Assembly: GCA_938010045.1 (NCBI GenBank)
Contig: CALLFZ010000001.1
Span: 62,001-126,000 of the forward strand
Origin: an uncultured bacterium
Lineage (GTDB): Bacteria > Verrucomicrobiota > Kiritimatiellia > PWTM01
DNA length: 64,000 nucleotides
Direction: 5' to 3'
Positions 378 to 43,792 of the stretch are shown in pieces. Numbering within the stretch: position 1 is the first letter of the stretch; every line of letters begins with the position of its first letter. Below the pieces are notes generated by a model, which was not told where the DNA came from, searched no databases, and worked only from the letters and a program-made list of their open reading frames with translations. A program made the translations under genes and the position numbers.

Positions 378-424
378 AGGGGGCGCGGGGGGCGGTATCG
401 GCCGGGCCGTGCCGCGCGGTCGGA

Positions 425-454
425 TTGTCCGCGGCGGCGGGGGTTTGTTATCGT
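425..454 (+). promoter_or_regulatory. Candidate sigma70-type promoter for purM
   Basis: TTGTCC (425-430), an 18-base spacer and TATCGT (449-454) precede purM, leaving a leader of roughly 50 bases. No purine riboswitch or PurR-like box was recognised in the 175-base gap. Weak consensus match in GC-rich DNA. Confidence 0.25.
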
Positions 455-508
455 GCCCGCGAACGCGGGCCCGCCAACGGCGGAGCCGCGCGCTCGGATC
501 TGGCAGGT

Positions 509-1543
509 ATGGCAGCCAACACATCAGCGTACGCGGCGGCGGGAGTGGACATTGACCGGAAGATGGCGGCGCTCCGCCGCGCGAAGCGAGCGATCGAGGC
601 GACGTTCACGCGGGGCGTGGTGGGCCGGCTCGGCTCGTTTGGCGGCATGTTCCGCTCGCCCGGGTGCGACACGTTGCTGGTGGCGAGCACCGACGGGGTC
701 GGCACCAAGCTCAAGGTCGCCGTGATGACCGGCCGGCACGACACGGTTGGCGCGGACATCGTGAACCACTGCGTGAACGACATCCTCGTGCAAGGGGCCG
801 AACCGCTGTTCTGTCTTGACTACATCGGCGCCTCGCGGTTGGACCCGGCGGTGCTCGCGCAGGTGATCGAGGGGTTGTGCGGGGCGTGCCGCGAGAACGG
901 TTGCGCGCTGATCGGCGGCGAGACGGCGGAGATGCCGGGGCTCTATCCCGAGGGCGAATACGATTTGGTCGGCACGATCGTGGGGGCCGTTGCGCGCCGC
1001 GACGTGATCACGGGCCGCGAGATTCGCGCGGGCGATGTGCTGATCGGGCTGCCGTCGAGCGGCCTGCACACGAACGGCTACACGCTGGCGCGCCGAATCA
1101 TCTTCGAACAGGCAAGGCTCTCCCCGCAGGACGTGCTGCCGGGCGACGGGCGCACGGTCGCGGACGCGCTGCTGGCCGTGCACCGCAGCTACCTGGGGCC
1201 GATTCGAGCGCTGCGGCGTGCCGTGCGGGTGCGGGGCCTCGCGCACATCACGGGCGGCGGATTTCCCGACAACCTGCCGAGAATCTTGCCGGCCGGCCTC
1301 GCGGCGGTGCTGGATCGGGGCGCATGGAGGCCGCCGCCGCTCTTCGCGTTCCTGCAACAGGCGGGCGGTGTGGACCGGGACGAGATGTACCGCGTGTTCA
1401 ACATGGGCATCGGCATGGTGGCGGTGGTGCGCGCGGCCGAGGCCGACGACGCGTTGCGCGCGCTGCGACGGGCGGGCGAGCGCGCCGTGCCGATCGGCGA
1501 GGTGCGCGCGCGCCGCCGCCGCGCGGTTGAACTCGTGGGCTGA
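509..1543 (+). CDS. purM: Phosphoribosylformylglycinamidine cyclo-ligase (AIR synthetase)
   Basis: Converts FGAM plus ATP to aminoimidazole ribotide, step five of de novo purine synthesis, in the cytoplasm. The 344-residue product matches the usual family length. Seen: start SAYAAAGVDID, the ATP-binding DGVGTKLKVA segment, NDILVQGAEPLFCLDY, GGETAEMPG and ITGGGFPDNLPR, all in PurM order. The frame is open further upstream (to about 293), but ATG 509 (MAANTS) places the conserved AGVDID motif correctly and clears the divergent lpdA promoter region. Only 24 bases separate it from purH, so the two purine genes probably form one operon. Confidence 0.95.
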   Translation: MAANTSAYAAAGVDIDRKMAALRRAKRAIEATFTRGVVGRLGSFGGMFRSPGCDTLLVASTDGVGTKLKVAVMTGRHDTVGADIVNHCVNDILVQGAEPLFCLDYIGASRLDPAVLAQVIEGLCGACRENGCALIGGETAEMPGLYPEGEYDLVGTIVGAVARRDVITGREIRAGDVLIGLPSSGLHTNGYTLARRIIFEQARLSPQDVLPGDGRTVADALLAVHRSYLGPIRALRRAVRVRGLAHITGGGFPDNLPRILPAGLAAVLDRGAWRPPPLFAFLQQAGGVDRDEMYRVFNMGIGMVAVVRAAEADDALRALRRAGERAVPIGEVRARRRRAVELVG

Positions 1544-1567
1544 GGCGGCGGTGGACTGGGGGCGCAC

Positions 1568-3178
1568 ATGACGGCCATTCGACGGGCATTGATCAGCGTG
1601 TCGGACAAGACGGGCGTGGTGGAGTTCGCGCGCGCGCTGGCGGACTTCGGCGTCGAGATCCTCTCCACGGGCGGCACGGCGGCGGCTCTGCGCGCGGCGG
1701 GTGTGCCGGTGCGCGAGGTGTCCGACTTTACGGGATTTCCCGAGATGCTCGACGGGCGCGTGAAGACGCTGCATCCGCGCGTGCACGCGGGCATCCTGCA
1801 CCGGCGCGACGTCCCCGCGCACCTCGAGGCGATGCGCGAGCACGGTCTCGAACCCATCGACCTGGTCGCCGTGAATCTCTACCCTTTCGAACGGGTGACG
1901 GCCGGCGGTGCGGACTGGGAGACCGCGATCGAACATATTGACATCGGCGGACCGGCCATGGTGCGCTCGGCGGCGAAGAACATGGATGCGGTCACGGTGG
2001 TGACCGATCCAGCCGACTACTCGCGCGTCGTCGCGTGCATGCGCGAGCACGGCGGCGCGACCACGCTCGAGTTGCGGCGCGAGCTGGGCGCGAAGGCGTA
2101 TGCGCGCACCGCGCAGTACGACGCCGCGATTGCGGCGTGGCTCGGCGCAGCCTCCGCGCCGTTGGTGGTGACGGCTGGGCCCGGCACGCCGCTGCGCTAC
2201 GGCGAGAACCCGCACCAGGCCGCGCGGCTGCACCTCGATCCGTTCGCGTTGGGGCCGACGATCGCCCGCGCCCGCCAGCTTCACGGCCGCGAACTGTCGT
2301 ACAACAACTATCTCGACGGCGACGCGGCGCTCGAGACCATCCGTGAATTTTACGACGTGCCGGCCGCAGTGGTGATCAAGCACAACAACCCGTGTGGCTG
2401 CGCAACGGCCGACACGCTCGCGGCGGCGCTCGACGCGGCATGGGAGGGGGACCCGGTCTCGGCGTTCGGCAGTGTGATCGCGGTGAGCCGGCCGATGGAT
2501 CGGGCGGCGGCCGAGCGGCTGAAGGGACGATTCGTCGAGGCCATCGTCGCGCCCGGGTTCGAGCCCGACGCGCTCGAGTTTCTGCGACGAAAGAGCCGGG
2601 ACCTTCGATTGCTCGAACTCGACGTGCCCCTTGCGCCACCCTCGGCGGCGTGGCGTGTGCGTCAGATCAGCGGCGGGTGGCTGGTCCAGGAAGGCGATGT
2701 GGGCGTCGTGCAGCACTGGGTGGTGCCCACGAGCACCCCGTTCCCCGATGCAAAGCGAGCGCTGGCCGAGTTTGGCATCCGCGTCGCGAAGCGCATCCGA
2801 TCCAACGCGATTGTGATCGTGCGGGAGCATGCGCCGGGTCGGTACGCACTGCTCGGCATGGGGGCAGGCCAGCCGAACCGCGTGGACGCCCTCGCGCGGC
2901 TCGCGGTGCCGAGGGCGGTGGAGAACCTGCGCCGGCTGCACGCGGCGGTGGGCTACGGCGAAAACGAGCCCGAGTTTGTGCAGCGGGCAATGGCCGAGAG
3001 CGTGCTGGTCTCCGACGCGTTTTTCCCTTTCCCCGATAACATCGAGCAGGCCGCGGCGGCCGGCGTGAAATACGTCGTGCAGCCCGGCGGCTCGGTGCGG
3101 GATGAGGAGGTCGTCGCCGCCTGCGATCGCTTTGGCATCGCCATGGTGTTCACCGGCATGCGGCACTTCCTGCACTGA
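1568..3178 (+). CDS. purH: Bifunctional AICAR formyltransferase/IMP cyclohydrolase
   Basis: Catalyses the last two steps of IMP synthesis, formylating AICAR with 10-formyl-THF and then closing the ring. 536 residues, normal length. The N-terminal MGS-like cyclohydrolase domain (about 1-200) shows ISVSDKTGVVEFARAL, STGGTAAALR and DGRVKTLHPRVHAGIL. The C-terminal AICAR transformylase domain shows LRYGENPHQAA, LSYNNYLDGDAA and VIKHNNPCG, where the Lys-His pair is catalytic in the family. It ends with the usual VVQPGGSVRDEEV and GMRHFLH. It follows purM closely. The ATG at 1568 fits the family start exactly. Confidence 0.97.
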   Translation: MTAIRRALISVSDKTGVVEFARALADFGVEILSTGGTAAALRAAGVPVREVSDFTGFPEMLDGRVKTLHPRVHAGILHRRDVPAHLEAMREHGLEPIDLVAVNLYPFERVTAGGADWETAIEHIDIGGPAMVRSAAKNMDAVTVVTDPADYSRVVACMREHGGATTLELRRELGAKAYARTAQYDAAIAAWLGAASAPLVVTAGPGTPLRYGENPHQAARLHLDPFALGPTIARARQLHGRELSYNNYLDGDAALETIREFYDVPAAVVIKHNNPCGCATADTLAAALDAAWEGDPVSAFGSVIAVSRPMDRAAAERLKGRFVEAIVAPGFEPDALEFLRRKSRDLRLLELDVPLAPPSAAWRVRQISGGWLVQEGDVGVVQHWVVPTSTPFPDAKRALAEFGIRVAKRIRSNAIVIVREHAPGRYALLGMGAGQPNRVDALARLAVPRAVENLRRLHAAVGYGENEPEFVQRAMAESVLVSDAFFPFPDNIEQAAAAGVKYVVQPGGSVRDEEVVAACDRFGIAMVFTGMRHFLH

Positions 3179-29433: not shown

Positions 29434-31203
29434 TCAACGCGCGTACACTGGCCGGCGTCGGTAGTGCGTGTGCAGCAGTTCGTGCGCGCGCGCGCTCAGT
29501 GGGGCTCCGAGAAACTCGGCGTAGAGCTTCTGGATGTACGGGTTTTGGTGCGAGCAACGCTTCTGACTCATCGCGTCGTCCTGGTAGATACCCGACGCGC
29601 GACGCCGGCGCACCTCGTCGTCGGCGCCGTACGGTTGGCCGCCGCCGCCCACGCATCCGCCGCGACAGGCCATCACCTCGATGAAATGATAGGCCGGCTC
29701 TTCGCCGCGCCGCCGCGTTTCACGCACACGGTCGAGCACAGTTTCGATGTTGTTCATCCAGTGCGCCGCGGCGACGCGCAGCGTGCGGCCTGCGATCTCG
29801 ATCGTCGCCTCCTTCACGCCGTCGAGCCCGCGCAGCGGCAGGAAGTTAATGTCCGGCGCCTCCCGCTTGGTGATCAGGTAGTGCGCAGTGCGCAGCGCGG
29901 CCTCCATCACGCCGCCGGTCGCCCCGAAGATCGTGCCGGCGCCGGTGTAGTAGCCGAGGATCGAATCGGCCTCTTCGTCCGGCAGCTCCATGAAGTCGAT
30001 GCCGCACTCCTTGATCATGCGCGCGAGCTCGCGCGTCGTGATCGACACGTTCACGTATGGCCGCTCGCCATCGAACATCTCGCGCGACCGGATGATCTCG
30101 AACTTCTTTGCGGTGCAGGGCATCACGGAGACCATGTAAATCTTCGCGGGGTCGAGCCCCTTCACCTGCGCGTAGTAGGTCTTCGCCATCGCGGCGAGCA
30201 TCGCGTGGGGCGACTTCGCGGTGGAGAAGTTCTCGATGAAGTCCGGCGCGTACTTCTCCATGTAGTCGGTCCAGGCTGGGCAACAGCTCGTGATCAGCGG
30301 CAGCGGTCCAGCGCCGTGCAGGAAGCGATGCACGAACTCGGTGGCCTCCTCCATGATCGTGAGATCGGCGCCGAAGTTCGTGTCGAACACGGCCTGAAAG
30401 CCCAGCCGCCGCAGCGCGGCGTAGGTCTTGCCGGTGAGCACGGTGCCGGGCTCGTAGCCGAACGCCTCGCCGATCGCGACGCGCACGGCCGGCGCGATCT
30501 GCACGACACAGTGCAGGTCGGGGTTCTGCAGCGCGCGCCATACGCGGTCGGTTTCGTCGTGTTCGTAGATTGCGCCGACCGGACAGTGCGCGCTGCACTG
30601 GCCGCAGCGGATGCAGGGGCTCTCGGCGAGCTGGATGTCGCCGGTGGGCGCGAGCCGCGTCGAGTCACCGCGGCCGACGAACTCGAGCGCCCAGACGTTC
30701 TGCATCCGCTGGCAGACGATTGCGCATCGGCCGCACTTCACGCACTTCTCGGGGTTCAGCACGACCGCGCGCGTCGAGTCGTCGGTTGGCAGGCTCGCGA
30801 CGCGGCTCGCGAACGGCACCTCGCGGATGCCGAAATCGGCCGCGAGCCGCTGGAGCTCGCAGTTGCCGTTGCGCGGGCAGCGCAGGCAGTCGTTCGGGTG
30901 CGTCGAGAGGAGGAGCTGCAGCACAGATTTACGCACGCGCACGATCTCGGGGTCGTGCGTTGTGATCCGCATCCCGTCCTCGACGGGCGTTGCGCAGGCG
31001 CGCAGCATCTTCGGCGAGCCCTCAACCTTCACCACGCAGATGCCGCAGGCGGCCCACGCCGGCAGGTCCGGGTGGTAGCACAGCCGCGGAATGCGGATCC
31101 CGATGCGCTCGGCCGCCTGGAGAATCGTTGTGCCCTCTGGCACCTCACACTCGAGGCCGTTGATCTCCGCCTTCACCGTGGGGATGGTCCGTGCGGTCGT
31201 CAT
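29434..31203 (-). CDS. hydA: [FeFe] hydrogenase catalytic subunit, HndD/HydA of an NAD-linked bifurcating complex
   Basis: 589 residues. The N-terminal plant-type [2Fe-2S] domain has Cys42, Cys53, Cys56 and Cys70. Next come the His-ligated [4Fe-4S] motif HPNDCLRCPRNGNC (102-115) and two [4Fe-4S] ferredoxin motifs (CVKCGRC at 154, CIRCGQC at 197). The H-cluster domain has L1 TSCCPAW (305-311), L2 MPCTAKKFE (361-369) and L3 MACRGGCVGGGGQP (511-524), all intact, so it should be catalytically competent. With HydB and HydC it should couple H2 to both ferredoxin and NAD(H). ATG 31203 has a GGGAG site; the frame reads open into hydB upstream, but that part is shadow. The maturases HydEFG are not in this window. 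Confidence 0.96.
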   Translation of the reverse strand: MTTARTIPTVKAEINGLECEVPEGTTILQAAERIGIRIPRLCYHPDLPAWAACGICVVKVEGSPKMLRACATPVEDGMRITTHDPEIVRVRKSVLQLLLSTHPNDCLRCPRNGNCELQRLAADFGIREVPFASRVASLPTDDSTRAVVLNPEKCVKCGRCAIVCQRMQNVWALEFVGRGDSTRLAPTGDIQLAESPCIRCGQCSAHCPVGAIYEHDETDRVWRALQNPDLHCVVQIAPAVRVAIGEAFGYEPGTVLTGKTYAALRRLGFQAVFDTNFGADLTIMEEATEFVHRFLHGAGPLPLITSCCPAWTDYMEKYAPDFIENFSTAKSPHAMLAAMAKTYYAQVKGLDPAKIYMVSVMPCTAKKFEIIRSREMFDGERPYVNVSITTRELARMIKECGIDFMELPDEEADSILGYYTGAGTIFGATGGVMEAALRTAHYLITKREAPDINFLPLRGLDGVKEATIEIAGRTLRVAAAHWMNNIETVLDRVRETRRRGEEPAYHFIEVMACRGGCVGGGGQPYGADDEVRRRRASGIYQDDAMSQKRCSHQNPYIQKLYAEFLGAPLSARAHELLHTHYRRRPVYAR

Positions 31204-31220: not shown

Positions 31221-33011
31221 TTAGCTGCGCTGCACGGCGCCGAACTTGCAGGCCTTGAAACATTCGCCGCACTTGATGCAGCGCGAGAGGTCGATCACGT
31301 GCGGCTGGCGGCGCTCGCCGCGGATGCAGTTGACGGGGCAGCGGCGCGCGCAGAGCGTGCAGCCGATGCACTTGTCCGCGAGGATCGTATAGGTCACCAG
31401 CGCGCGGCAGCGGCCGGATGGACAGCGCTTTTCCTTGATATGGACGCGATACTCTTCGCCAAAGTACGTTAGCGAGGAGAGCACCGGGTTGGGCGCGGTC
31501 TGCCCGAGGCCGCAGAGCGACGCCTTCTGCATCGCATGCGCGACGGTGTGAATCTGCTCGATGTGGCCCACCGTACCGCGGCCCTCGGTGATGTCGGTGA
31601 GCAGGTTGAACATCGTGCGGCCGCCGATGCGGCAGGGCGCGCACTTGCCGCAGGACTCGTCCACCGTGAACTCAAGGTAGAACTTGTTCACATCCACGAT
31701 GCAGTCGTCCTCGTCCATCACGATCAGCCCGCCCGAGCCCATGATCGAGCCGAGCTTCGCGAGCGACTCATAGTCGATCGGCGTGTCGAGGAACGACTCG
31801 GGAATCACGCCGCCCGACGGGCCGCCCGTCTGCGCGGCCTTGAACCGTTTTCCGCCCTTGATGCCACCACCGATGTCGAAAATGATCTCACGCAGCGTCG
31901 TGCCCATCGGCACCTCGATGAGACCCGAGTTGTTGACCTTGCCGGTCAGCGCGAAGACCTTCGTGCCCTTCGAAGTCTCCGTGCCGATCGAGGCAAACCA
32001 CGCGCCGCCCTTCAGGATGATCACCGGAATGTTCGCGAGAGTCTCGACGTTGTTGATCACCGTCGGCCGGCCCCAGAGCCCGCGCACCGCGGGGTAAGGG
32101 GGACGCGGAACGGGCATCCCGCGGTGGCCCTCGATCGAGGCAATCAGCGCGGTTTCCTCGCCGCAGACGAACGCACCCGCGCCGAGCCGCAGCTCGACGT
32201 CGAAGTCGAAACCAGTGCCCAGAATATCACGGCCGAGCAAACCGAGCTCGCGCGCCTGCCGGAGGGCGACCTCGAGCCGATGGATCGCGAGCGGATACTC
32301 CGCGCGAATGTAGATGTAGCCTTGATGCGCGCCGACCGCATAGCCCGCGATCGCCATCGCCTCGAGCACCGAGTGCGGATCGCCCTCGAGGGTGCTGCGA
32401 TCCATGTAGGCGCCCGGGTCGCCCTCGTCGGCGTTGCAGATGACGTACTTGACGTCCGAGTCGGCGTTCTTCGTGAACGTCCACTTCTTCCAGGTCGGAT
32501 AGCCGGCGCCGCCGCGGCCACGGAGGCCCGAGATCCGCACCTGCTCAATCACATCCTCGGGCGTCATCGAGGTCAGCACCGTCGCGAGCGCCTCGTAGCC
32601 TTCGCGCGCGATGTATTCCTCAATGTTCTCGGGATCAATCACGCCGCAGTTGCGCAGCACGATTCGAAACTGCTTCTGGTAAAAAGGGATGTCGGCGATG
32701 GCCGCGCGCCCCGCGCCGCCATAGAGCAGACGCTTCACCGGGCGGCCTTTCGCGAGGTGTTCGGCGACGATCTCGCCGGCGTCCTCGGGGCGGACCTGAA
32801 CGTAGAAGGTCTCATCGGGCAGGACCTTCACCACGGGGCCCTGCGCGCAGAATCCGAAGCAACCGGTGCGCACCACCTGCACTCGACCCTCGAGCCCCTG
32901 CGAGCGCACCGCGGCGGTCAGGCGCGAGTAGATTTCCCGACTCTGACAGGAGTCACAGGCGGTGCCAGCACAGACCAGAACGAACTGAGAGTACGGCATA
33001 GCTCGGCTCAC
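31221..33011 (-). CDS. hydB: NADH-binding subunit of bifurcating [FeFe] hydrogenase (NuoF-like)
   Basis: 596 residues with the HydB/HndC layout. An N-terminal thioredoxin-like [2Fe-2S] domain has CAGTACDSC and TGCFGFC. The NuoF core has GRGGAGYPTWKKWTF for FMN, CNADEGDPGAYMDR, and ESCGKCAPCRIG for a [4Fe-4S] cluster. Two C-terminal ferredoxin clusters are present (CIGCTLCARRCPVNC and CIKCGECFKACKF). It binds NAD(H) and FMN and is the site where electron bifurcation is thought to occur in this family. The GTG at 33011 overlaps the ferredoxin gene's stop; an ATG at 32999 (MPYSQF) is an equally good start. hydA follows after 17 bases. Confidence 0.95.
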   Translation of the reverse strand: MSRAMPYSQFVLVCAGTACDSCQSREIYSRLTAAVRSQGLEGRVQVVRTGCFGFCAQGPVVKVLPDETFYVQVRPEDAGEIVAEHLAKGRPVKRLLYGGAGRAAIADIPFYQKQFRIVLRNCGVIDPENIEEYIAREGYEALATVLTSMTPEDVIEQVRISGLRGRGGAGYPTWKKWTFTKNADSDVKYVICNADEGDPGAYMDRSTLEGDPHSVLEAMAIAGYAVGAHQGYIYIRAEYPLAIHRLEVALRQARELGLLGRDILGTGFDFDVELRLGAGAFVCGEETALIASIEGHRGMPVPRPPYPAVRGLWGRPTVINNVETLANIPVIILKGGAWFASIGTETSKGTKVFALTGKVNNSGLIEVPMGTTLREIIFDIGGGIKGGKRFKAAQTGGPSGGVIPESFLDTPIDYESLAKLGSIMGSGGLIVMDEDDCIVDVNKFYLEFTVDESCGKCAPCRIGGRTMFNLLTDITEGRGTVGHIEQIHTVAHAMQKASLCGLGQTAPNPVLSSLTYFGEEYRVHIKEKRCPSGRCRALVTYTILADKCIGCTLCARRCPVNCIRGERRQPHVIDLSRCIKCGECFKACKFGAVQRS

Positions 33012-33424
33012 TTTCCGGGCGCGCGAAGGTGCGGGGCCAGATCCGTGGCCGGCCGGTCATACACATGGTCATCCACGAGGCGCCCGCCGATCACGTGCTC
33101 CTCGACGATGCGCCGCGCCACCTCCGCAGTCACGCGGCCATAGATGGTCGGCGGCATGCCGGTGACGCGGACCTCGACCGTCGGTTCGGAGAAACATAAA
33201 CCCATGCAGCCGGTCTGGCGCACGACGATGTCGCCGCGGTGGTGTTGGTTGAGCGTCTCCACGAGCGCATCGAGCGCCTCGCGCGCGCCGGCCGCGATAC
33301 CGCAGGTGCCCATGCCAACGATGATTTCGCCGGCGGCGCCCTCGGCCGTCTGACGGCGCGCGATCGTCTGCTGCGCCCGTTCGCGCAGCGCCCGAAGTTC
33401 GTCCAGTGTCAACTTGCCCATCAT
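33008..33424 (-). CDS. Thioredoxin-like [2Fe-2S] ferredoxin of the hydrogenase operon
   Basis: 138 residues. After a charged N-terminal helix (LTLDELRALRERAQQ) comes a thioredoxin-like ferredoxin fold with the four expected cysteines, the first in MGTCGIAAG and later ones in RQTGCMGLCFSEP. Small proteins of this kind sit between the NuoE-like and HydB subunits in several [FeFe] hydrogenase operons and may carry electrons or build the complex. ATG 33424 overlaps the upstream stop (ATGA) and has a GGGAG site 5 bases ahead; ATG 33421 is next to it. The loop MGTCG keeps only one Cys before the second pair, so a close look at the fourth ligand is needed. Confidence 0.85.
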   Translation of the reverse strand: MMGKLTLDELRALRERAQQTIARRQTAEGAAGEIIVGMGTCGIAAGAREALDALVETLNQHHRGDIVVRQTGCMGLCFSEPTVEVRVTGMPPTIYGRVTAEVARRIVEEHVIGGRLVDDHVYDRPATDLAPHLRAPGK

Positions 33425-34011
33425 CGCATCTCCCATCGAGCGACCGGTGCGCGGCTCTCCGGCGCCGCCCTGAGTTTCGATTCGAGTGCCACCAGGCGGC
33501 GGCGAAGGCTCGTGATCGCCTCCGCGCGGGTCGCGCCGCCCCCATCCAGCCACTCAAGATTGTCCAGCTCGTAGCCGTGACCGTCCCGTTGGCGGCGCCA
33601 GCGCAGCGCCACTCCCCGGCCGGCGGCCATCGCCATCGCCGCGGCCGCCGGGGCGGCCCAGTCGCCCGATGGCGGGGCGTCCGGATGAGTCGCGTCCAGC
33701 GTCCAGCGCACCACCGTGCCGACACCGGGCTCCGACTCGATGGCAAGGTCCCCACCGGCTTGGCGGACGGCCTGATCGAGCATCGGCAGGCCCAGATGCG
33801 GCCGGCGTCCTGGGTGTTTGTGTGGATTCCCGCCGGCGAGGGGATCCAGAAGCGACCGCATCGCGTCCGCCGCCATGCCAGGACCGTCGTCGGACACAGT
33901 GACCGTCACCCGCGGACCCTCCTCAACGACCTCGACCTGCACCGCACGCGCGCCGGCCTCGATGGCGTTCGCCACCGGTTCCAACAGCCAGTCGCCGAGA
34001 GTCGTGTGCAT
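33421..34011 (-). CDS. GHKL/histidine-kinase-like ATPase domain protein of the hydrogenase operon
   Basis: 196 residues. The N-terminal 110 residues form a HATPase_c domain: N-box region LLEPVANAIEAGA, G1 box DDGPGM, a G2-like RRPHLGLPMLDQA and G3 GVGTVVRWTLD. There is no phospho-accepting His domain and no membrane segment, so it is a stand-alone ATPase, possibly an anti-sigma-type kinase or a protein-binding ATP switch. The C-terminal 80 residues are unassigned. The gene is locked inside the hydrogenase operon, overlapping the stop of hydC and the start of the ferredoxin gene. Similar proteins occur in NuoE-containing hydrogenase operons elsewhere; their function is not established. Confidence 0.8.
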   Translation of the reverse strand: MHTTLGDWLLEPVANAIEAGARAVQVEVVEEGPRVTVTVSDDGPGMAADAMRSLLDPLAGGNPHKHPGRRPHLGLPMLDQAVRQAGGDLAIESEPGVGTVVRWTLDATHPDAPPSGDWAAPAAAAMAMAAGRGVALRWRRQRDGHGYELDNLEWLDGGGATRAEAITSLRRRLVALESKLRAAPESRAPVARWEMR

Positions 34012-34541
34012 CAGCCCCCCCGATGTTTCGCGACGATGTCCGCGAGCTGGTCCTTGGTCAGCCGCCCGTACACCTGTCCGTCCACCGTCAGCACCGGCGC
34101 CAAGCCGCAGCAACCGATGCAGCGGACGGCTTCGATCGAAAATTCGCCATCCGCCGTCGTCTGATTGAGGCCGATGCCGAGGATCGTCTCCAGTTCCTTG
34201 ATCAGATCTTCTCCGCCCTTCAAGTAGCAGGCCGTCCCCATGCACACCGCGATCTGGTGGCGTCCCGGCTTCCTCAGCTTGAAGAAGTGATAAAACGTCA
34301 CCACGCCATAGATTTTGGCCAGCGGCACATCGAGGCGTGCGGCGACCTCGAAGGCGACGTCCCGCGGCACGTAACCGTAGTGCTCCTGCACACGGTGGAG
34401 AACCATGATCAGGTTCCCCGGCCGCGTCTTCCACTCCTCGATGAACCGGGAGAGGTCCTCCGGCAGTTCGATCGTGCGATCCGGCAACGCTGTAATTGGC
34501 TCGTTCGTTTCCATAGTTCGTATCTCGACTCGCTCCGCCAT
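34011..34541 (-). CDS. hydC: NuoE-like [2Fe-2S] subunit of bifurcating [FeFe] hydrogenase
   Basis: About 176 residues from ATG 34541 (ATG 34514, METNEP, is an alternative; neither has a strong ribosome site). It is the 24-kDa-subunit type: helical N-terminus (DLSRFIEEWKTRPG), HYGYVPRDVAFEVAARLDV, YGVVTFYHFF, then a thioredoxin-like [2Fe-2S] domain with CMGTACYLKGG and RCIGCCGLAP, giving the four ligands. It forms the HydC part of the HydABC complex and is the first gene of the leftward operon. Its stop overlaps the GHKL gene by a single base. Confidence 0.93.
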   Translation of the reverse strand: MAERVEIRTMETNEPITALPDRTIELPEDLSRFIEEWKTRPGNLIMVLHRVQEHYGYVPRDVAFEVAARLDVPLAKIYGVVTFYHFFKLRKPGRHQIAVCMGTACYLKGGEDLIKELETILGIGLNQTTADGEFSIEAVRCIGCCGLAPVLTVDGQVYGRLTKDQLADIVAKHRGG

Positions 34542-34565
34542 GACCGGAGAGAGCAAATTTCTTTC

Positions 34566-34593
34566 ATGATACCAGCCCAGATGATGGATTCAA
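34566..34593 (-). promoter_or_regulatory. Candidate promoter of the hydrogenase operon
   Basis: On the minus strand TTGAAT (34588-34593), a 16-base spacer and TATCAT (34566-34571) form a reasonable sigma70-type promoter about 25 bases before hydC. It is the best match in the gap. The Rex operator lies about 40 bases upstream of the -35 box. Confidence 0.45.
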
Positions 34594-34633
34594 GTGGAAT
34601 ATGGCACGTATAGTCTCAACGCGATGGCGCAAT

Positions 34634-34651
34634 ATGTGAAATCCTTCACGA
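34634..34651. promoter_or_regulatory. Rex operator (redox-responsive repressor site)
   Basis: ATGTGAA-ATCC-TTCACGA matches the well-known Rex consensus TTGTGAA-N4-TTCACAA at 12 of 14 fixed positions, including the full TGTGAA/TTCAC core. It sits in the 175-base gap between hydC and rex, and so can serve both directions: autoregulation of rex and NADH-dependent derepression of the hydrogenase operon. Binding itself is inferred. Confidence 0.85.
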
Positions 34652-34657
34652 GTGAGC

Positions 34658-34685
34658 TTGAATTCTGTGCGACGTGCGATACTTT
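34658..34685 (+). promoter_or_regulatory. Candidate rex promoter
   Basis: TTGAAT (34658-34663), 16 bases, TACTTT (34680-34685), starting 7 bases after the Rex operator. The -10 box is poor. A TATAGT at 34609-34614 is a better -10 box and would place the operator just downstream of its start site, but it has no good -35 box. Either would be blocked or touched by Rex. Confidence 0.25.
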
Positions 34686-34716
34686 ATTGCACGGAATAAG
34701 TGGAGCACAGCGCAAC

Positions 34717-35358
34717 ATGAGTGCAACAAAAGAAGTGGTCGTCCGGCTGACAAAGTACAAGAACGTACTGGAAAAGCTTCGCTCGCTGGGGTTTGTAAAG
34801 GTGTTTTCCGACAATCTCGCCGATGCGGTGGGCGTGTCGCCAGCACTGGTCCGTAAAGATTTTTCCGTTTTCGGACTGACCGGCAAGAAGCGCGCGGGCT
34901 ACCAAGTGGATGACCTGATCGCCCAGCTCAACCGGATCCTCGGGGTGGACGAGGTCCAGCGAGTGATTGTGGTCGGCTGCGGCAAGATCGGAACCGCCCT
35001 CATGCGGTATCGGGGCTTTGCGCGCGAACGCATCCGGGTTGTGGCAGGTTTCGATGTGGACCCGTCGAAAATTGACCCGAACGCGCCGATTCCGATCCGC
35101 GATATCAACGAGATGCCCTACATCGTGAAGAGTGAGAAGATCCAGGTCGCGATTCTCGCGGTGCCCGAGACGGTGGCCGCGCAGGTCGCGGAGGCGTTGA
35201 TCGCGGCCGGGATTCGCGGCATCTTGAACTTCGCGCCCATTCTGCTGAAAAGCCAAAACAACGTTGTGGTCCAGAACATCAACATCGCGCTGGAATTGGA
35301 AAACCTCTTCTGTTTGTTGCGTTTTGCAGAGCAGGGGTTGGATCGGGGGCGGCCATGA
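34717..35358 (+). CDS. rex: Redox-sensing transcriptional repressor Rex
   Basis: 213 residues, standard length. The N-terminal winged helix shows VFSDNLADAVGVSPALVRKDFSVFG, ending in the RKD(L/F)S..G motif that is diagnostic for Rex; the Rossmann domain has VIVVGCGKIGTAL (GCGKIG at 87-92) for NAD(H); a C-terminal swapped helix follows (INIALELENLFCLL). It senses the NADH/NAD+ ratio and represses fermentative and hydrogenase genes when NADH is low. ATG 34717 matches the family start; GGAG lies 11 bases ahead. A Rex site lies 66 bases upstream. It overlaps the following gene by 4 bases. Confidence 0.96.
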   Translation: MSATKEVVVRLTKYKNVLEKLRSLGFVKVFSDNLADAVGVSPALVRKDFSVFGLTGKKRAGYQVDDLIAQLNRILGVDEVQRVIVVGCGKIGTALMRYRGFARERIRVVAGFDVDPSKIDPNAPIPIRDINEMPYIVKSEKIQVAILAVPETVAAQVAEALIAAGIRGILNFAPILLKSQNNVVVQNINIALELENLFCLLRFAEQGLDRGRP

Positions 35359-35693
35359 CGCTGGATGATGCCCGACGGGCCCTCGCGGCCGAAGAGATCC
35401 ACCTGCCGGACGCGGCGCGCGCGAGAGAGGTGTCGGGTGTGGTCGCGACGGATCTCATGAGCGACCTGCTCACCGCCGATCGCGTGGGATGCCTGGTGCT
35501 GACCGCTCTGGCCTCGGACCAGGCGGTGCGCACGGCGGATCTCGTCGGAGCCGCCGGTGTGATTGTCGTGAACGGCAAACCCCTGCCAGCCGGCATGGTG
35601 GAGCTGGCGCGCGAGCTGGGCATGCCGCTCTTGCGCTGCCGCCGGCCCATGTTCGAGTCGTGCGCGGCGCTGGCCCGTGCGGCCGGTCGGTGA
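35355..35693 (+). CDS. DRTGG-domain protein
   Basis: 112 residues, essentially one DRTGG domain. It has an N-terminal region (EEIHLPDAARAREVSGVVATDL) and the core MSDLLTADRVGCLVLTALASDQAVRTADLVGAAGVIVVNGK, broken here by normal variation, ending in a Met/Cys-containing tail (PLLRCRRPMFES). Such domains occur beside CBS domains and in HPr-kinase relatives and are thought to bind a small ligand. The gene overlaps rex by 4 bases and the CBS-GHKL gene by GTGA, so it belongs to a Rex-controlled unit. DRTGG proteins co-occur with NAD-linked [FeFe] hydrogenases in other anaerobes; no function is proven. Confidence 0.8.
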   Translation: MTLDDARRALAAEEIHLPDAARAREVSGVVATDLMSDLLTADRVGCLVLTALASDQAVRTADLVGAAGVIVVNGKPLPAGMVELARELGMPLLRCRRPMFESCAALARAAGR

Positions 35694-36682
35694 CCGGCGC
35701 GATGGCAGCGGAGCGGCCGATGGCCGTCCTTCCCCTTCCGGCGGATCAGATTCCGCTCGTGCTGCAGGACCTGCTGTTCCGCCTCAAAGTGCGGGACGTG
35801 ATGACGCGCGACCTCATCACGGTGCGCCGCACCGACACCATGCGCTATGCGCGCGCGCTGATGAAAACGCACGGCATCACCGGCCTGCCCGTTGCCGAGC
35901 AGGACCGCCTCTACGGAATCGTGAGCATGGACGACGTGATCACGGTTCTGGAACTGCAGCGCCTCGACGATCCAGTCGAGGCGCACATGACCGAGCGGGT
36001 GGTGGTGCTCGAAGACGACATGCCGCTGGCGTTCGGCGCGTCGTATTTCGACAAGTACCGGTTCGGGCGTTTCCCGGTGTTGGACCGCAACGGCCGGCTG
36101 TGCGGCATCCTCACCAGCCGCGACATCAGCGCCTCGCTGCTGATCGAGCTCTATAAGGAGTACGCCCGCCTCGAGGCCCGCGTGCCCGCTCCGGCGCCGC
36201 GTCGCACGCCGGGCGAGCGGCTTCGTTTCACCGTGCGGCGCTACGACTTTGAGAACGCCGGACGGGCCGCTCACGAGATTAAGAAGGCCCTCACCGCACG
36301 TGGCCTGCCGCCGGAGCTGGTGCGCCGGGTCGCAATCGCTGCGTATGAGATGGAGATGAATCTCGTGGTTCACTCGGTCGGAGGTGTCCTGGAGGCCCAC
36401 ATCGAGGATGGGCTGGCCGAGATCACCGCGACCGACGAGGGGCCCGGCATCGCGGATGTGGAACTCGCGCTCCAAGACGGCTTCTCCACCGCAAACGATT
36501 GGGTGCGCTCGCTTGGATTCGGCGCGGGCATGGGGCTGGGTAACATCCGCCGCGTCGCGGACGACTTCTCGATCCGCTCGGCGCCGGGGCAGGGCACGCA
36601 TTTGCGCGCCGCGGTCCGTTGGCCGCCCGCCGACACGCCGCCTCCCGCATCCACCACGACCGGCGCGGAGCCGCCGCGATGA
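35690..36682 (+). CDS. CBS-pair protein fused to a GHKL (RsbW-like) ATPase domain
   Basis: About 330 residues from GTG 35690 (GTGA overlap) or 326 from ATG 35702. Two CBS motifs span roughly residues 30-150 (VRDVMTRDLITVRRTDTM, GLPVAEQDRLYGIVSMDDV, FPVLDRNGRLCGILTSRDI). The C-terminal 120 residues are an anti-sigma-factor-type ATPase with N-box YEMEMNLVVHS, DEGPGI and GFGAGMGLGNIRRVAD. CBS pairs usually sense adenine nucleotides, so ligand-gated kinase or anti-sigma activity is a reasonable idea. No sigma factor or anti-anti-sigma STAS protein is encoded nearby. Confidence 0.85.
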   Translation: MTGAMAAERPMAVLPLPADQIPLVLQDLLFRLKVRDVMTRDLITVRRTDTMRYARALMKTHGITGLPVAEQDRLYGIVSMDDVITVLELQRLDDPVEAHMTERVVVLEDDMPLAFGASYFDKYRFGRFPVLDRNGRLCGILTSRDISASLLIELYKEYARLEARVPAPAPRRTPGERLRFTVRRYDFENAGRAAHEIKKALTARGLPPELVRRVAIAAYEMEMNLVVHSVGGVLEAHIEDGLAEITATDEGPGIADVELALQDGFSTANDWVRSLGFGAGMGLGNIRRVADDFSIRSAPGQGTHLRAAVRWPPADTPPPASTTTGAEPPR

Positions 36683-37041
36683 GGACCGTCGGATCGCTCT
36701 GGACCGCGCTCGGCGGCGTCGAGGTGCTGGTGGAAGGAAACCCGAACACGCCGCTGGCTGCGGGCTACACCTCAGACCTGCTCAGCGACGTGCTCGGCCA
36801 CGCGCCGCCGGATAGCGTTTGGATCACCGTGCAGACCCACCGCGCCGTCGTCGGCGTCGCGGTGGCGGTGGGCATCCGCGCGATGTTGGTGGCCCACGGC
36901 CGCGAGGTTCCACCGGAGACGCTCGAAGCCGCGCGAGCGGAATCGCTCGCGATCGCGCGCTCGCCGCTCAACCAGTTCGAGCTCTCGTGGCGGGTTCATG
37001 GAGCGCTCACGGACGTCGCGCCCCCCGTCGGCACGACGTGA
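36679..37041 (+). CDS. Second short DRTGG-like domain protein
   Basis: 120 residues. AAGYTSDLLSDVLGHAPPDSVWITVQTHRAVVGVAVAVGIRAMLV follows the DRTGG pattern of a short acidic helix then a hydrophobic beta-strand (sequence read in pieces), and the protein resembles the small partner proteins found with PHP-domain genes in hydrogenase loci. It overlaps the CBS-GHKL gene by ATGA and is separated from the PHP gene by one base. The C-terminal half (PPETLEAARAESLAIARSPLN) is helical. Ligand and role are unknown. Confidence 0.7.
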   Translation: MRTVGSLWTALGGVEVLVEGNPNTPLAAGYTSDLLSDVLGHAPPDSVWITVQTHRAVVGVAVAVGIRAMLVAHGREVPPETLEAARAESLAIARSPLNQFELSWRVHGALTDVAPPVGTT

Positions 37042-37042
37042 G

Positions 37043-37792
37043 ATGAAAACCGATCTGCACATTCACACGTGCCTTTCGCCGTGCGGCGACCTGAGCATGT
37101 CGCCCCGCGCGATTGCCCACGCCGCGGTGCGCGCCGGCCTCGGGCTGATCGGCGTGGTGGACCACAACTCCGGCATGAACGCGCCCTCCGCCGTGCGCGC
37201 GGCCACGGACCGCGGCGTCGCCACCCTCGCCGGTGTCGAGGTGACCACCGTCGAGGAGCTGCATGTGTTGGCCCTCTTCGACAATCCGGCCGCCGCCGTC
37301 GCGTTCGGCCGTTGCGTGTTCGAACGGATGACTCCCGTCCCCGCCGCTGGGTTCGACGACACCGATCAGCCCGTCGTGAACGAGACCGGCGAGATCGAGC
37401 ACTTCGTGCCCCTCTGGCTCGGCGCTCCCACGGACTGGCCGCTCACCGACCTCTGTCGACTCATCCTCGCGGCGGGCGGTCTGTGCATCCCCTCCCATGT
37501 GGACCGCCCCACGATGAGCATCCTCTCGCAGCTCGGGCGCATGCCGGAGCTTCCCTTTGATGCCGTCGAAATCAGCGGCCACTATGATCGGCGCCGCGAC
37601 CCGGCCCACCTGCGCGGTCGGTGGGCGATGATCCGGACCAGCGATGCCCACCGTCCCGAGGAGATCGGCCGCGGCTGGACCGAGCTGCCCATTCGACGCG
37701 TCGCCATACCGGAGATTCGTACCGTGCTGCGCGACTTGCAGGTCGAACAGCGCTTCGACCCCGACGCCGGACTTTCGCCGGCGGACTTGTGA
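37043..37792 (+). CDS. PHP-domain metal-dependent phosphoesterase-like protein
   Basis: 249 residues. It begins directly with MKTDLHIHTCLSPCGD, the first PHP metal motif, followed by GVVDHNSG, LAGVEVTTVEEL, IPSHVDRP and RTSDAH, so the metal site looks complete. PHP enzymes hydrolyse phosphoesters of nucleotides or small metabolites. As the last gene of the rex operon it could destroy a signal molecule sensed by the DRTGG or CBS proteins; that is inference. Start ATG 37043 lies one base after the preceding stop. The reading frame extends upstream without family similarity. Confidence 0.88.
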   Translation: MKTDLHIHTCLSPCGDLSMSPRAIAHAAVRAGLGLIGVVDHNSGMNAPSAVRAATDRGVATLAGVEVTTVEELHVLALFDNPAAAVAFGRCVFERMTPVPAAGFDDTDQPVVNETGEIEHFVPLWLGAPTDWPLTDLCRLILAAGGLCIPSHVDRPTMSILSQLGRMPELPFDAVEISGHYDRRRDPAHLRGRWAMIRTSDAHRPEEIGRGWTELPIRRVAIPEIRTVLRDLQVEQRFDPDAGLSPADL

Positions 37793-41087: not shown

Positions 41088-42470
41088 ATGAGCGACGCGC
41101 GCCCATCCGACCGCCGCCCGAGCCGCGAAGACGTCGCTCATGCCGAAATCGGCCACACCGACATTCATCCAGCCGCCGCGCGGTGGACCACCTGGATCGC
41201 CGCGCTCGGCCTCGCTCTCGTGCCAATCGCGCAAGTCGGCCGCGAGATCGCCCAGTACCGGCGTGGCGACCGCAGCACGCCCTGGCCGACCATCACGAGC
41301 CTCGGCCCAGTGCTCGCCGATGCGGTCATCTCGTGGAACGCGGCACCGCAGGGATGGCGGAACCGCCTGCTCGAGGCCAACCACGTTCTGCGCCTCGGTC
41401 TGAAGCGCTACGAGGATGACCTCGAGGAAGCCTCGTGGTTTCGCGCGCGGGTCCAGCCCCTCACGCAACTTGTGTTGAGCCGCGTGTTGGCCACCGGCAA
41501 CGAGCCCACGCAGATCGGGCGCCATGGTGTGCTCTACTATGGTCCCGAGCTCGACCACCTCGCCGGTCCCGGCTTCCTGAACCCGGCCACCATGGCGCGC
41601 CGGCGGCGGGAGGGCGACCGGTGGACGCCGGCGCCCGAGCCGGACTCCGTGACCGCGATCGTGGACTTTCGCGATCAGCTCGCCACGCGCGGCATCCATC
41701 TGGTCCTTGTGCCTGTGCCCGTGAAGACCGGCGCCTGGCCGGCCGGCTTCACGCGGCGGCCACTCGGCCAGCCGCCGCTGCACAACCGCAGCTGGCCTGA
41801 GTGGCGCGCCGCGCTCGAACGACACGGCGTCGACGTCGTGGACCTCGACGCCGTGCTCCGAGCTCTGCCACCGGATGTGCGAACCGCGCCGTATCTGAAG
41901 ACCGATACCCACTGGCGGCCAGAGACCATGGAGTGCGTCGCGCGCGCAATTGCCGAACGGGTGCAGGCGTGGCTGGGAGAGAGGACCGAGACCGCGGGAT
42001 ACACGGCGCACGAGGTTACCGTGACCAACCGCGGCGATTTGGCAGTGATGCTCAATCTGCCCGACACCTCCGCGTGGCCGCCGCCCGACATCGTCACCGT
42101 GCGGCAGGTGCGGCGGCCCGACGGGCGCCCCTGGGCACCCGACCCGACCGCCGACACGCTGCTGCTCGGCGATAGCTTCGCGAACATCTTCTCGCTCGAG
42201 TCCATGCGGTGGGGCGCGGCCGCAGGGCTCGCCGAACACATCGCCTTGGCGCTGCAGCGGCCGGTGGATCGAATGGTGCGCAACGACGCGGGCGCGTTCG
42301 CGACACGCCAGATGCTGTTCGGCGAGGTGCGACGCCGGCCTGACCGCCTCGCGACTACGCGCGTCGTGGTCTGGCAGTTCTCCGAACGCGAGCTCTCGTT
42401 CGGCGACTGGAAACGCCTGTCGTGGCCCGAGGCGAGTCCGCCGACGGCCCGCTCAGCGACGCCGCCGTGA
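41088..42470 (+). CDS. AlgX/AlgJ-like SGNH-type acetyltransferase partner (copy 2)
   Basis: 460 residues. A cytoplasmic N-terminus of about 25 residues leads to one membrane span (TWIAALGLALVPIAQV), then a periplasmic ALGX-like domain. VLVPVPVKTGAWPAGF, DTHWRPETM (Asp273, His275) and LLGDSFANIF (Ser363) provide the expected SGNH elements. It ends VVVWQFSERELSFGDW, a typical AlgJ ending. It pairs with the preceding MBOAT gene; the stop overlaps the GTG of the BrkB-like gene. Confidence 0.85.
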   Translation: MSDARPSDRRPSREDVAHAEIGHTDIHPAAARWTTWIAALGLALVPIAQVGREIAQYRRGDRSTPWPTITSLGPVLADAVISWNAAPQGWRNRLLEANHVLRLGLKRYEDDLEEASWFRARVQPLTQLVLSRVLATGNEPTQIGRHGVLYYGPELDHLAGPGFLNPATMARRRREGDRWTPAPEPDSVTAIVDFRDQLATRGIHLVLVPVPVKTGAWPAGFTRRPLGQPPLHNRSWPEWRAALERHGVDVVDLDAVLRALPPDVRTAPYLKTDTHWRPETMECVARAIAERVQAWLGERTETAGYTAHEVTVTNRGDLAVMLNLPDTSAWPPPDIVTVRQVRRPDGRPWAPDPTADTLLLGDSFANIFSLESMRWGAAAGLAEHIALALQRPVDRMVRNDAGAFATRQMLFGEVRRRPDRLATTRVVVWQFSERELSFGDWKRLSWPEASPPTARSATPP

Positions 42471-43792
42471 CGCGCTCCGCCCAGCGCCCGGGCCGGCGAC
42501 GCGCGCTGGTCGTGCTCGTTGCGCGCGAAGCGTTCGCGGCGTTCGCGCGGCACCGACATGGTGAGACCGCCGCGGTGCTCGCCTACTACGGCTTTCTTTC
42601 GTTCGTGCCGCTGCTGTTGCTGATCTCCGTACTCACAAGCCGCTGGGTGATGGTCTCGCCGGCCGCGATGCAGGCAATCCGCAACGCGTCGGACCAGCTC
42701 GTGGCCGGGCTCGGCGCGATCGCGCTCGATCAGATCGAAACCCTGGCCGCGCAGCGCGCGTGGAGCTTCGTCGGTCTGCTCGCGCTCTTCTGGGCCACGA
42801 CACCCTTTGCGGCCGCGCTGCGGGGCGCGATGTGGCGGGTGTTCCAACCCGAGCGGCCGATTGGACTCGTCCGCGCAAAGTTGCGCGATGTGGTCGGCGC
42901 GCTGGTCGTGCTCGCAGTGTGTTTGCTGCTCGTCGGTGGGCGCATTCTCTATGGTGCGGTGGCGCGCCGGCTCCCGCCCTCGGTGTCGTCGGTCGCCGGC
43001 GCAGTCGAACTCGGATTTTCGTTTGCGCTTGCATTGGTGGCGGTCGCGGTGCTCTTCCGCGTCTTTGCGCCGGTACGGCTGCGCGGCGCCGACCTGCTCT
43101 CCGGCGCGGTGGTATCCGCGTTGCTCTTGCTCGTGATCCGGCCCGCCTTCGCAATGATTCTGCGCTACAATCCGAACTATGGCTTCGCGTTCGGATCGCT
43201 GAAAGCCGTGTTTCTGACGCTGACGTGGGTCTACGTCTCCTTCGCCGCGCTGCTGCTGGGCGCTGAAATCACGGCCGCGGCGCGCCGCCGCGACGCCGCA
43301 CTGCTGCGGCTCTTCGTGATCGGCCGCGGCGAGAAGGGCGCCGCACCCCTCGTTGAGCGCCATGCGCGGCCCGTCGCGGCGGGCGAGGTGCTCTTTCGGG
43401 AGGGCGACGGCGGCGACGAGATGTACGTCGTGCGCCGCGGCCGGATCCGCCTGCGCCGCGGCTCGACGGTGCTGCGCGACATGGGCGTCGGCGACTACTT
43501 CGGCGAGCTCTCGATGCTGCTGGGAACGCCGCGCAGCGCGACCGCGGAGGCCGTCGAGGACAGCGAACTCGTCGTGATCCGCCGTGACCAGTGGGAGCTG
43601 ATGCTCCGAGAACAACCCGAGCTCGCGCTGCCGCTCCTGCGCGAGCTGGCCGAACGGTTGCGGGCGACCGATGCCCGGTTCGACAGCACGCCGCCCGCGT
43701 CCAATGCGAGCGGCCACCAGGAAGATGAGATGAAGACCCAACCACCGCGCGGCGGCCCACCGGGGCCCGCGCGGTCAACGGATATGCGATGA
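42467..43792 (+). CDS. YihY/BrkB-type membrane protein fused to a cyclic-nucleotide-binding domain
   Basis: 441 residues from GTG 42467. The N-terminal 280 residues are a YihY/UPF0761 membrane domain with six spans: RHRHGETAAVLAYYGFLSFVPLLLL split over the first span, RAWSFVGLLALFWATTPF, and YGFAFGSLKAVFLTLTWVYVS. Residues 300-410 are a cNMP-binding domain: VLFREGDGGDEMYVVRRGRIRL, DYFGELSMLLGTPRSATAEAVE, which keeps the GELSxLxxxPRxAT phosphate cassette including the Arg. There is no helix-turn-helix, so it is not a CRP regulator. The fusion suggests a membrane function gated by a cyclic nucleotide. It overlaps genes on both sides. Confidence 0.88.
   Translation: MTRSAQRPGRRRALVVLVAREAFAAFARHRHGETAAVLAYYGFLSFVPLLLLISVLTSRWVMVSPAAMQAIRNASDQLVAGLGAIALDQIETLAAQRAWSFVGLLALFWATTPFAAALRGAMWRVFQPERPIGLVRAKLRDVVGALVVLAVCLLLVGGRILYGAVARRLPPSVSSVAGAVELGFSFALALVAVAVLFRVFAPVRLRGADLLSGAVVSALLLLVIRPAFAMILRYNPNYGFAFGSLKAVFLTLTWVYVSFAALLLGAEITAAARRRDAALLRLFVIGRGEKGAAPLVERHARPVAAGEVLFREGDGGDEMYVVRRGRIRLRRGSTVLRDMGVGDYFGELSMLLGTPRSATAEAVEDSELVVIRRDQWELMLREQPELALPLLRELAERLRATDARFDSTPPASNASGHQEDEMKTQPPRGGPPGPARSTDMR

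Follow-up and report, generated by a model that had tools for sequence, protein, structure and literature searches.

The operator of Staphylococcus aureus Rex is described as the palindrome TTGTGAAW4TTCACAA, to which binding is raised by NAD+ and lowered by NADH (PMC2883068), and Rex has been reported to bind such palindromes better with NAD+ and to leave them with NADH (PMC2883068, PMC8836258). In Caldicellulosiruptor bescii, gel shifts indicate that Rex binds upstream of the [FeFe]-hydrogenase genes (Hyd) (PMC6391272), Rex control of the hydrogenase operon Clo1313_1885-1881 has been reported for C. thermocellum (PMC8457756), and a Rex site has been predicted for the Hnd hydrogenase of Solidesulfovibrio fructosivorans (PMC10084766). 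Rex control of such hydrogenases is, therefore, already known; what is distinctive of the locus studied here, which lies in a 64-kb stretch of DNA from an uncultured bacterium (the window, i.e., the whole stretch that was analysed), is that one operator, set at an almost constant spacing, is shared by two divergent operons (Table 1). Our literature search, which reached few subscription journals, retrieved no study pairing Kiritimatiellota with Rex. We consider it probable that the Rex protein whose gene lies next to positions 34634-34651 binds there, acting on the rex side and probably also on the hydrogenase. What we observed directly is the site itself, how it is conserved and spaced relative to two predicted promoters, and the identity of the protein as a Rex.

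Table 1. Features of the rex-hydrogenase locus (positions in the window).
Feature	Position	Strand	Basis and remarks
Putative Rex operator ATGTGAAATCCTTCACGA	34634..34651		Consensus match, de novo motif, independent matrix
Shared regulatory gap of the divergent operons	34542..34716		175 bp, hydrogenase start at 34541
Predicted rex promoter TTGAAT-16-TACTTT	34658..34685	+	Consensus prediction; -35 box starts 6 bp after the operator
Predicted hydrogenase promoter TTGAAT-16-TATCAT, TG before the -10 box	34566..34593	-	Consensus prediction, strongest on the hydrogenase side
rex, redox-sensing repressor, 213 aa	34717..35358	+	NCBIfam NF003996, 233.8 bits (cut-off 138); Pfam Put_DNA-bind_N, CoA_binding; PDB relatives
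DRTGG-like protein	35355..35693	+	DRTGG 18.5 bits, below the Pfam cut-off of 25.2; overlaps the rex stop by 4 bases
CBS pair + HATPase_c protein	35702..36682	+	Domain matches; begins 8 bases after the first DRTGG-like gene
Second DRTGG-like protein	36679..37041	+	Weak, 16.6 bits against a cut-off of 25.2; overlaps the CBS-HATPase gene by 4 bases
PHP-domain protein	37043..37792	+	Domain match; ORF listed from 36998
NuoE-like thioredoxin [2Fe-2S] subunit, first hydrogenase-operon gene	34011..34541	-	Domain match
HATPase_c protein in the hydrogenase operon	33421..34011	-	Domain match
Small [2Fe-2S] ferredoxin-like subunit	33008..33424	-	Domain match
HydB / NuoF-like FMN, NADH-binding subunit	31221..33011	-	Domain match
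HydA, catalytic [FeFe] subunit	29434..31203	-	NCBIfam NF040763 (NADH-dependent [FeFe] hydrogenase), 779.1 bits, cut-off 765

The gap between the two operons would be 202 bp long rather than 175 bp if the hydrogenase operon began at ATG 34514, which is also a possible start. HydA passes the cut-off for the NADH-dependent [FeFe] hydrogenases of group A6. On the other side, rex and the DRTGG-like, CBS-HATPase, second DRTGG-like and PHP genes are probably read as one transcript, since they overlap or nearly abut; two of three orthologous DRTGG-like pieces tested exceed the Pfam cut-off of 25.2 bits. The only other [FeFe]-hydrogenase domain match of the genome lies at 409-3066 on the minus strand of contig C32 (L124), in an ORF that resembles a histidine kinase towards its C terminus and is possibly an H2-sensing hydrogenase kinase.

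Pfam and an NCBIfam equivalog match assign the regulator an N-terminal winged helix-turn-helix and a C-terminal Rossmann NAD(H) domain, with a GCGKIG motif, and seven of the eight distinct PDB sequences that it matched are named Rex, the eighth being an "AT-rich DNA-binding protein." Arg48 and Lys49, the recognition residues of Thermotoga maritima Rex (PMC8836258), correspond to R46 and K47 here in an ungapped stretch of the alignment. The DNA contacts of the T. maritima protein that are kept comprise, besides these two, Arg12 (R10), Ser33 (S31), Ser52 (S50), Gly58 (G56) and Tyr64 (Y62), whereas Glu34 (D32), Lys43 (S41), Gln46 (L44) and the wing residues Arg60 (K58) and Gly61 (R59) are changed. 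The wing pair is a variable trait that we do not hold to define the Rex family, and the Rex chain of 2vt2 likewise has Lys at the first wing position. R59 is invariant in all 18 aligned sequences, and this wing Arg may be the mark of a Rex subfamily linked to hydrogenases. In its right half-site ATGTGAAATCCTTCACGA has C instead of T at the second position, its only unusual base, which would map to the minor-groove contact with Thy4 O2 of the T. maritima complex, where a cytosine would also offer an O2.

As claimed in the first-pass annotation, which was made from the letters alone, the site agrees with TTGTGAA-N4-TTCACAA at 12 of 14 positions, the mismatches being A for T at the first base and G for A at base 17, and it lies in the gap shared by rex and the hydrogenase operon, 175 bp long when counted from ATG 34541. 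It is thus an 18-bp palindrome of the TTGTGAA-N4-TTCACAA or TTGTTAA-N4-TTAACAA type expected of a Rex operator, and the rex start codon follows 66 bases beyond its last base. The possibility that the palindrome arose by chance, in a gap that is richer in AT than the GC-rich genome around it, has to be considered, since, although the site is the sole place in the window with at most three mismatches, 43 of 100 shuffled windows contained at least one such place. At the scale of the window the consensus match is, therefore, not significant, and we set consensus matching alone aside as proof of an operator. The lack of a significant site in the close relative G002 (see below) also fits a chance origin. 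When the 175-bp gap itself was shuffled (mononucleotides), none of 500 shuffles reached 12 of 14. The annotation had proposed a scan with a Rex matrix as a check; scored with an independent matrix, trained on 62 relatives and without the seven members of the window's family, ATGTGAAATCCTTCACGA obtains 14.2 bits; when the 260-bp upstream region was shuffled 1000 times by dinucleotides, a single shuffle did as well. This result, together with a de novo motif far above that of shuffled sets and the same register to two predicted promoters in relatives, makes a chance origin barely credible.

The de novo motif was derived from the relatives. The Rex protein was matched in 40 of 58 related genomes, and all 17 loci taken for their close Rex (L035-L051, 50-98% identity) show the divergent order of rex and hydrogenase operon, with the first DRTGG-like gene present in 11 of them (tblastn). 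A scan of named genomes yielded at least 65 loci, by record title mostly from Kiritimatiellota, Omnitrophota and Spirochaetota; one of the loci examined, L116, has several genes in two or more tblastn pieces, as would result from assembly frameshifts. After two near-duplicates (L091, L110) were dropped from 71 upstream regions, the motif set comprised 69 non-redundant regions of at most 260 bp, i.e., the window and 68 relatives. L105 (no upstream sequence), L119 (61 residues matched), L052-L054 and L023-L034 fall outside this set, and L037-L039, L041, L043-L046, L050 and L051 enter it only as their presumed named-genome copies. An expectation-maximisation search for any 18-bp palindrome yielded TTGTGA-N6-TCACAA with a log-likelihood of 254, compared to 118 for the next-best motif and 34-50 for the best motif in 12 dinucleotide-shuffled sets, which were run with fewer seeds per set than the real one. 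Since position 5 of the motif is G in 55% and T in 34% of the regions, it spans the Rex consensus of both S. aureus and Clostridiaceae (PMC2883068, PMC8457756).

In a leave-one-out analysis 51 of the 69 regions upstream of the orthologous rex genes carried a site significant at 0.05 (42 at 0.01) and 18 did not, among them that of the same-genus G002. Within the family the held-out matrix gives 19.8 bits for G001, 18.7 for G004, 16.6 for G006 and 14.1 for G005; the best site of G003 scores about 16.7-16.9 bits, and G002 retains what we regard as a relic in place (about 5.2-5.3 bits, equalled by 171 of 1000 shuffles). Conservation in relatives, the neighbouring rex gene and the conserved recognition helix together give the name "Rex operator" used in the first-pass annotation good support. 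In L061 and in L064 a pair of Rex-like sites, spaced by 63 bp, precedes rex at -86 and -23 relative to its start; the weaker of the two is nearer to the hydrogenase promoter.

Another family of regulators could also account for the palindrome, namely a CRP/FNR-family protein that binds it and activates the hydrogenase from about -83.5. ATGTGAAATCCTTCACGA fits the CRP core TGTGA-N6-TCACA at 9 of 10 positions, the genome encodes one protein with both cNMP_binding and Crp-type HTH domains (at C20), and class I activators act from helical phases near -83.5 and near the -92.5 of G005. However, the motif came from regions upstream of rex, and the recognition helix of the C20 protein, PETLSR, is FNR-like rather than CRP-like. 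Neither of the half-sites TGTGA (CRP) or TTGAT (FNR) is kept across the relatives, where G at position 5 gives way to T in about a third of the matrix, e.g., in ATGTGAATGGAATAACAA of G006, and T is a base that CRP does not favour there. We hold a CRP/FNR protein to be a very improbable binder; G or T at position 5 fits Rex and neither CRP nor FNR. A T at this position is also found in the Clostridiaceae Rex consensus TTGTTAA-N4-TTAACAA (PMC8457756). Elsewhere in the window, an ORF at 42422-43792 with many hydrophobic stretches contains a cNMP_binding domain (43367-43609) with no match to a Crp-type HTH.

If the palindrome is a Rex operator, its placement bears on which of the two operons it serves. 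Binding of Rex at 34634-34651, its response to NADH and the direction of control are what we infer. At low NADH, Rex without NADH would occupy the operator beside the -35 box of rex and repress rex and the downstream signalling genes; NADH would free Rex from the operator, both operons would rise as NADH accumulates, and the resulting H2 production could drain NADH. Autoregulation of rex together with the co-transcribed DRTGG, CBS-HATPase, DRTGG and PHP genes is the part of this scheme that we regard as very likely. That the same bound dimer keeps down the divergent operon of the NADH-dependent [FeFe] hydrogenase as well seems to us somewhat better founded than its negation. The first-pass annotation had predicted a joint response of H2 production and the signalling set to NADH/NAD+. 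For the signalling set this prediction holds up, as rex, the DRTGG, CBS/HATPase and second DRTGG genes follow the rex promoter with tight overlaps; for H2 production it is only likely, as the operator abuts the predicted rex promoter but is centred some 84 bp upstream of the point where hydrogenase transcription is predicted to begin.

This distance is too large for simple occlusion, and the operator might serve rex autoregulation only, leaving the hydrogenase promoter 84 bp away uncontrolled. The rex-hydrogenase order is divergent in 43 of the 69 regions, 35 of which have a site above 9 bits with a matrix built from the same set; in 26 of these 35 no more than 50 bp separate the site from the rex start, against about 100-350 bp on the hydrogenase side, whereas just two, L055 (= G003) and L079, have it about 60 bp or less from the start of the hydrogenase. 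Position does not, consequently, imply that the hydrogenase is controlled, since most divergent loci keep the site by the rex start. The operator here, moreover, abuts the predicted -35 box of rex, in a promoter missed by a stricter promoter scan.

Three observations speak against a role confined to autoregulation. The first is the geometry in the family, for which hydrogenase promoters and operators were picked separately, each by score, and the hydrogenase start was placed 7 bases after the -10 box; in the window the predicted starts fall near 34559 (-) for the hydrogenase and 34692 (+) for rex. Relative to this predicted start the operator is centred at -83.5 in the window's genome (G000), in G001 and, as a relic, in G002, at -84.5 in G006, -81.5 in G004 and -92.5 in G005, so that operator and hydrogenase promoter keep almost the same distance from each other, although the leader varies in length. 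On the rex side, 6 bp separate the end of the best site from the predicted -35 box in G000, G001, G002, G004 and G006 (for the last with the second-best promoter prediction); in G005 it adjoins the rex start instead. The gaps are homologous (that of the window is 59-67% identical to five others), and the fixed spacing is, therefore, to be read as conservation and not as six independent observations. Secondly, G003 and L079 each have a strong site where the hydrogenase starts; G003 retains a half-site relic at -83.5, likewise 6 bp before the predicted -35 box of rex, and the strong site has been relocated to +1.5 of the predicted hydrogenase start. Thirdly, in L075 and L088 (Omnitrophota) rex and, after it, the hydrogenase genes are read in one direction from the operator, which probably heads a rex-hydrogenase operon there. 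Control of the hydrogenase thus appears likely from the family spacing, the G003 site, a spirochaete locus like it and the Omnitrophota loci with rex and hydrogenase behind one operator, and we judge restriction of the operator to rex autoregulation rather unlikely, though it is the alternative that we take most seriously.

Activation of the hydrogenase by Rex is possible as well. In this Kiritimatiellota family Rex could be a dedicated switch that has essentially one operator per genome and acts in opposite ways, with rex and the signalling genes repressed from next to the rex -35 box and the hydrogenase activated, or gated by a bend, from -83.5; we consider this distinctly improbable compared to joint repression. 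If true, it would amount to a demonstrated activator role for Rex, a role that has been suggested, not yet demonstrated (PMC8457756).

Joint repression from this operator would seem to concern a single locus. In the whole 3.2-Mb genome four places have at most two mismatches to the consensus, against none for the reversed control pattern, and no metabolic target was found at the three others, which we reject as Rex targets: by ORF reading one lies inside a yicC-like gene beside trpB, and the other two adjoin glycosyltransferase genes close to contig ends. In G000 the operator is the single occurrence of the clade motif WTGTKA-N6-TMACRW, a match that is not independent, as the pattern was written after the site had been seen (R at position 17 admits it); the reversed control matched once forward and once reverse. 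The pattern finds the rex site in G001, G004 and G006, none of which has more than one further match, and misses it in G002, G003 and G005, where it occurs elsewhere at three, one and no places, respectively. The second site of G001 (C4:180136), in a short gap before two genes read from their ORFs as SH3-like and as cell-wall-type, respectively, is taken as chance because it is without a counterpart among the four consensus matches of G000. In G008 the reversed control pattern matches 115 times, perhaps owing to a repeat family. As other sites are nearly absent, our results suggest that Rex is here a local regulator serving one locus and not a regulon, while a weaker or different Rex motif elsewhere in the genome is possible.

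For uncultured bacteria, the locus offers a testable link between the NADH level, H2 production and a conserved set of signalling genes that are as yet uncharacterised. With this arrangement present in Kiritimatiellota and Spirochaetota, and its co-directional form in some Omnitrophota, the phyla in which Rex controls NADH-linked [FeFe] hydrogenases would become more numerous. Compared to S. aureus, the operator is the same 18-bp palindrome, here with two mismatches, but the reported 54 sites with up to three mismatches contrast with one clade-motif site here (PMC2883068). Hnd, like the present enzyme, is an electron-bifurcating [FeFe] hydrogenase linked to NAD, and its Rex site is likewise a prediction, although a divergent rex is not mentioned in the available part of that report (PMC10084766). 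Closest are C. bescii and C. thermocellum, where a Rex site precedes an [FeFe]-hydrogenase operon and rex is autoregulated (PMC6391272, PMC8457756), both of which are predicted here. In C. bescii, however, rex is listed as a separate target (PMC6391272), whereas in the present locus, from a different phylum, rex is divergent from the hydrogenase operon with a single operator in between.
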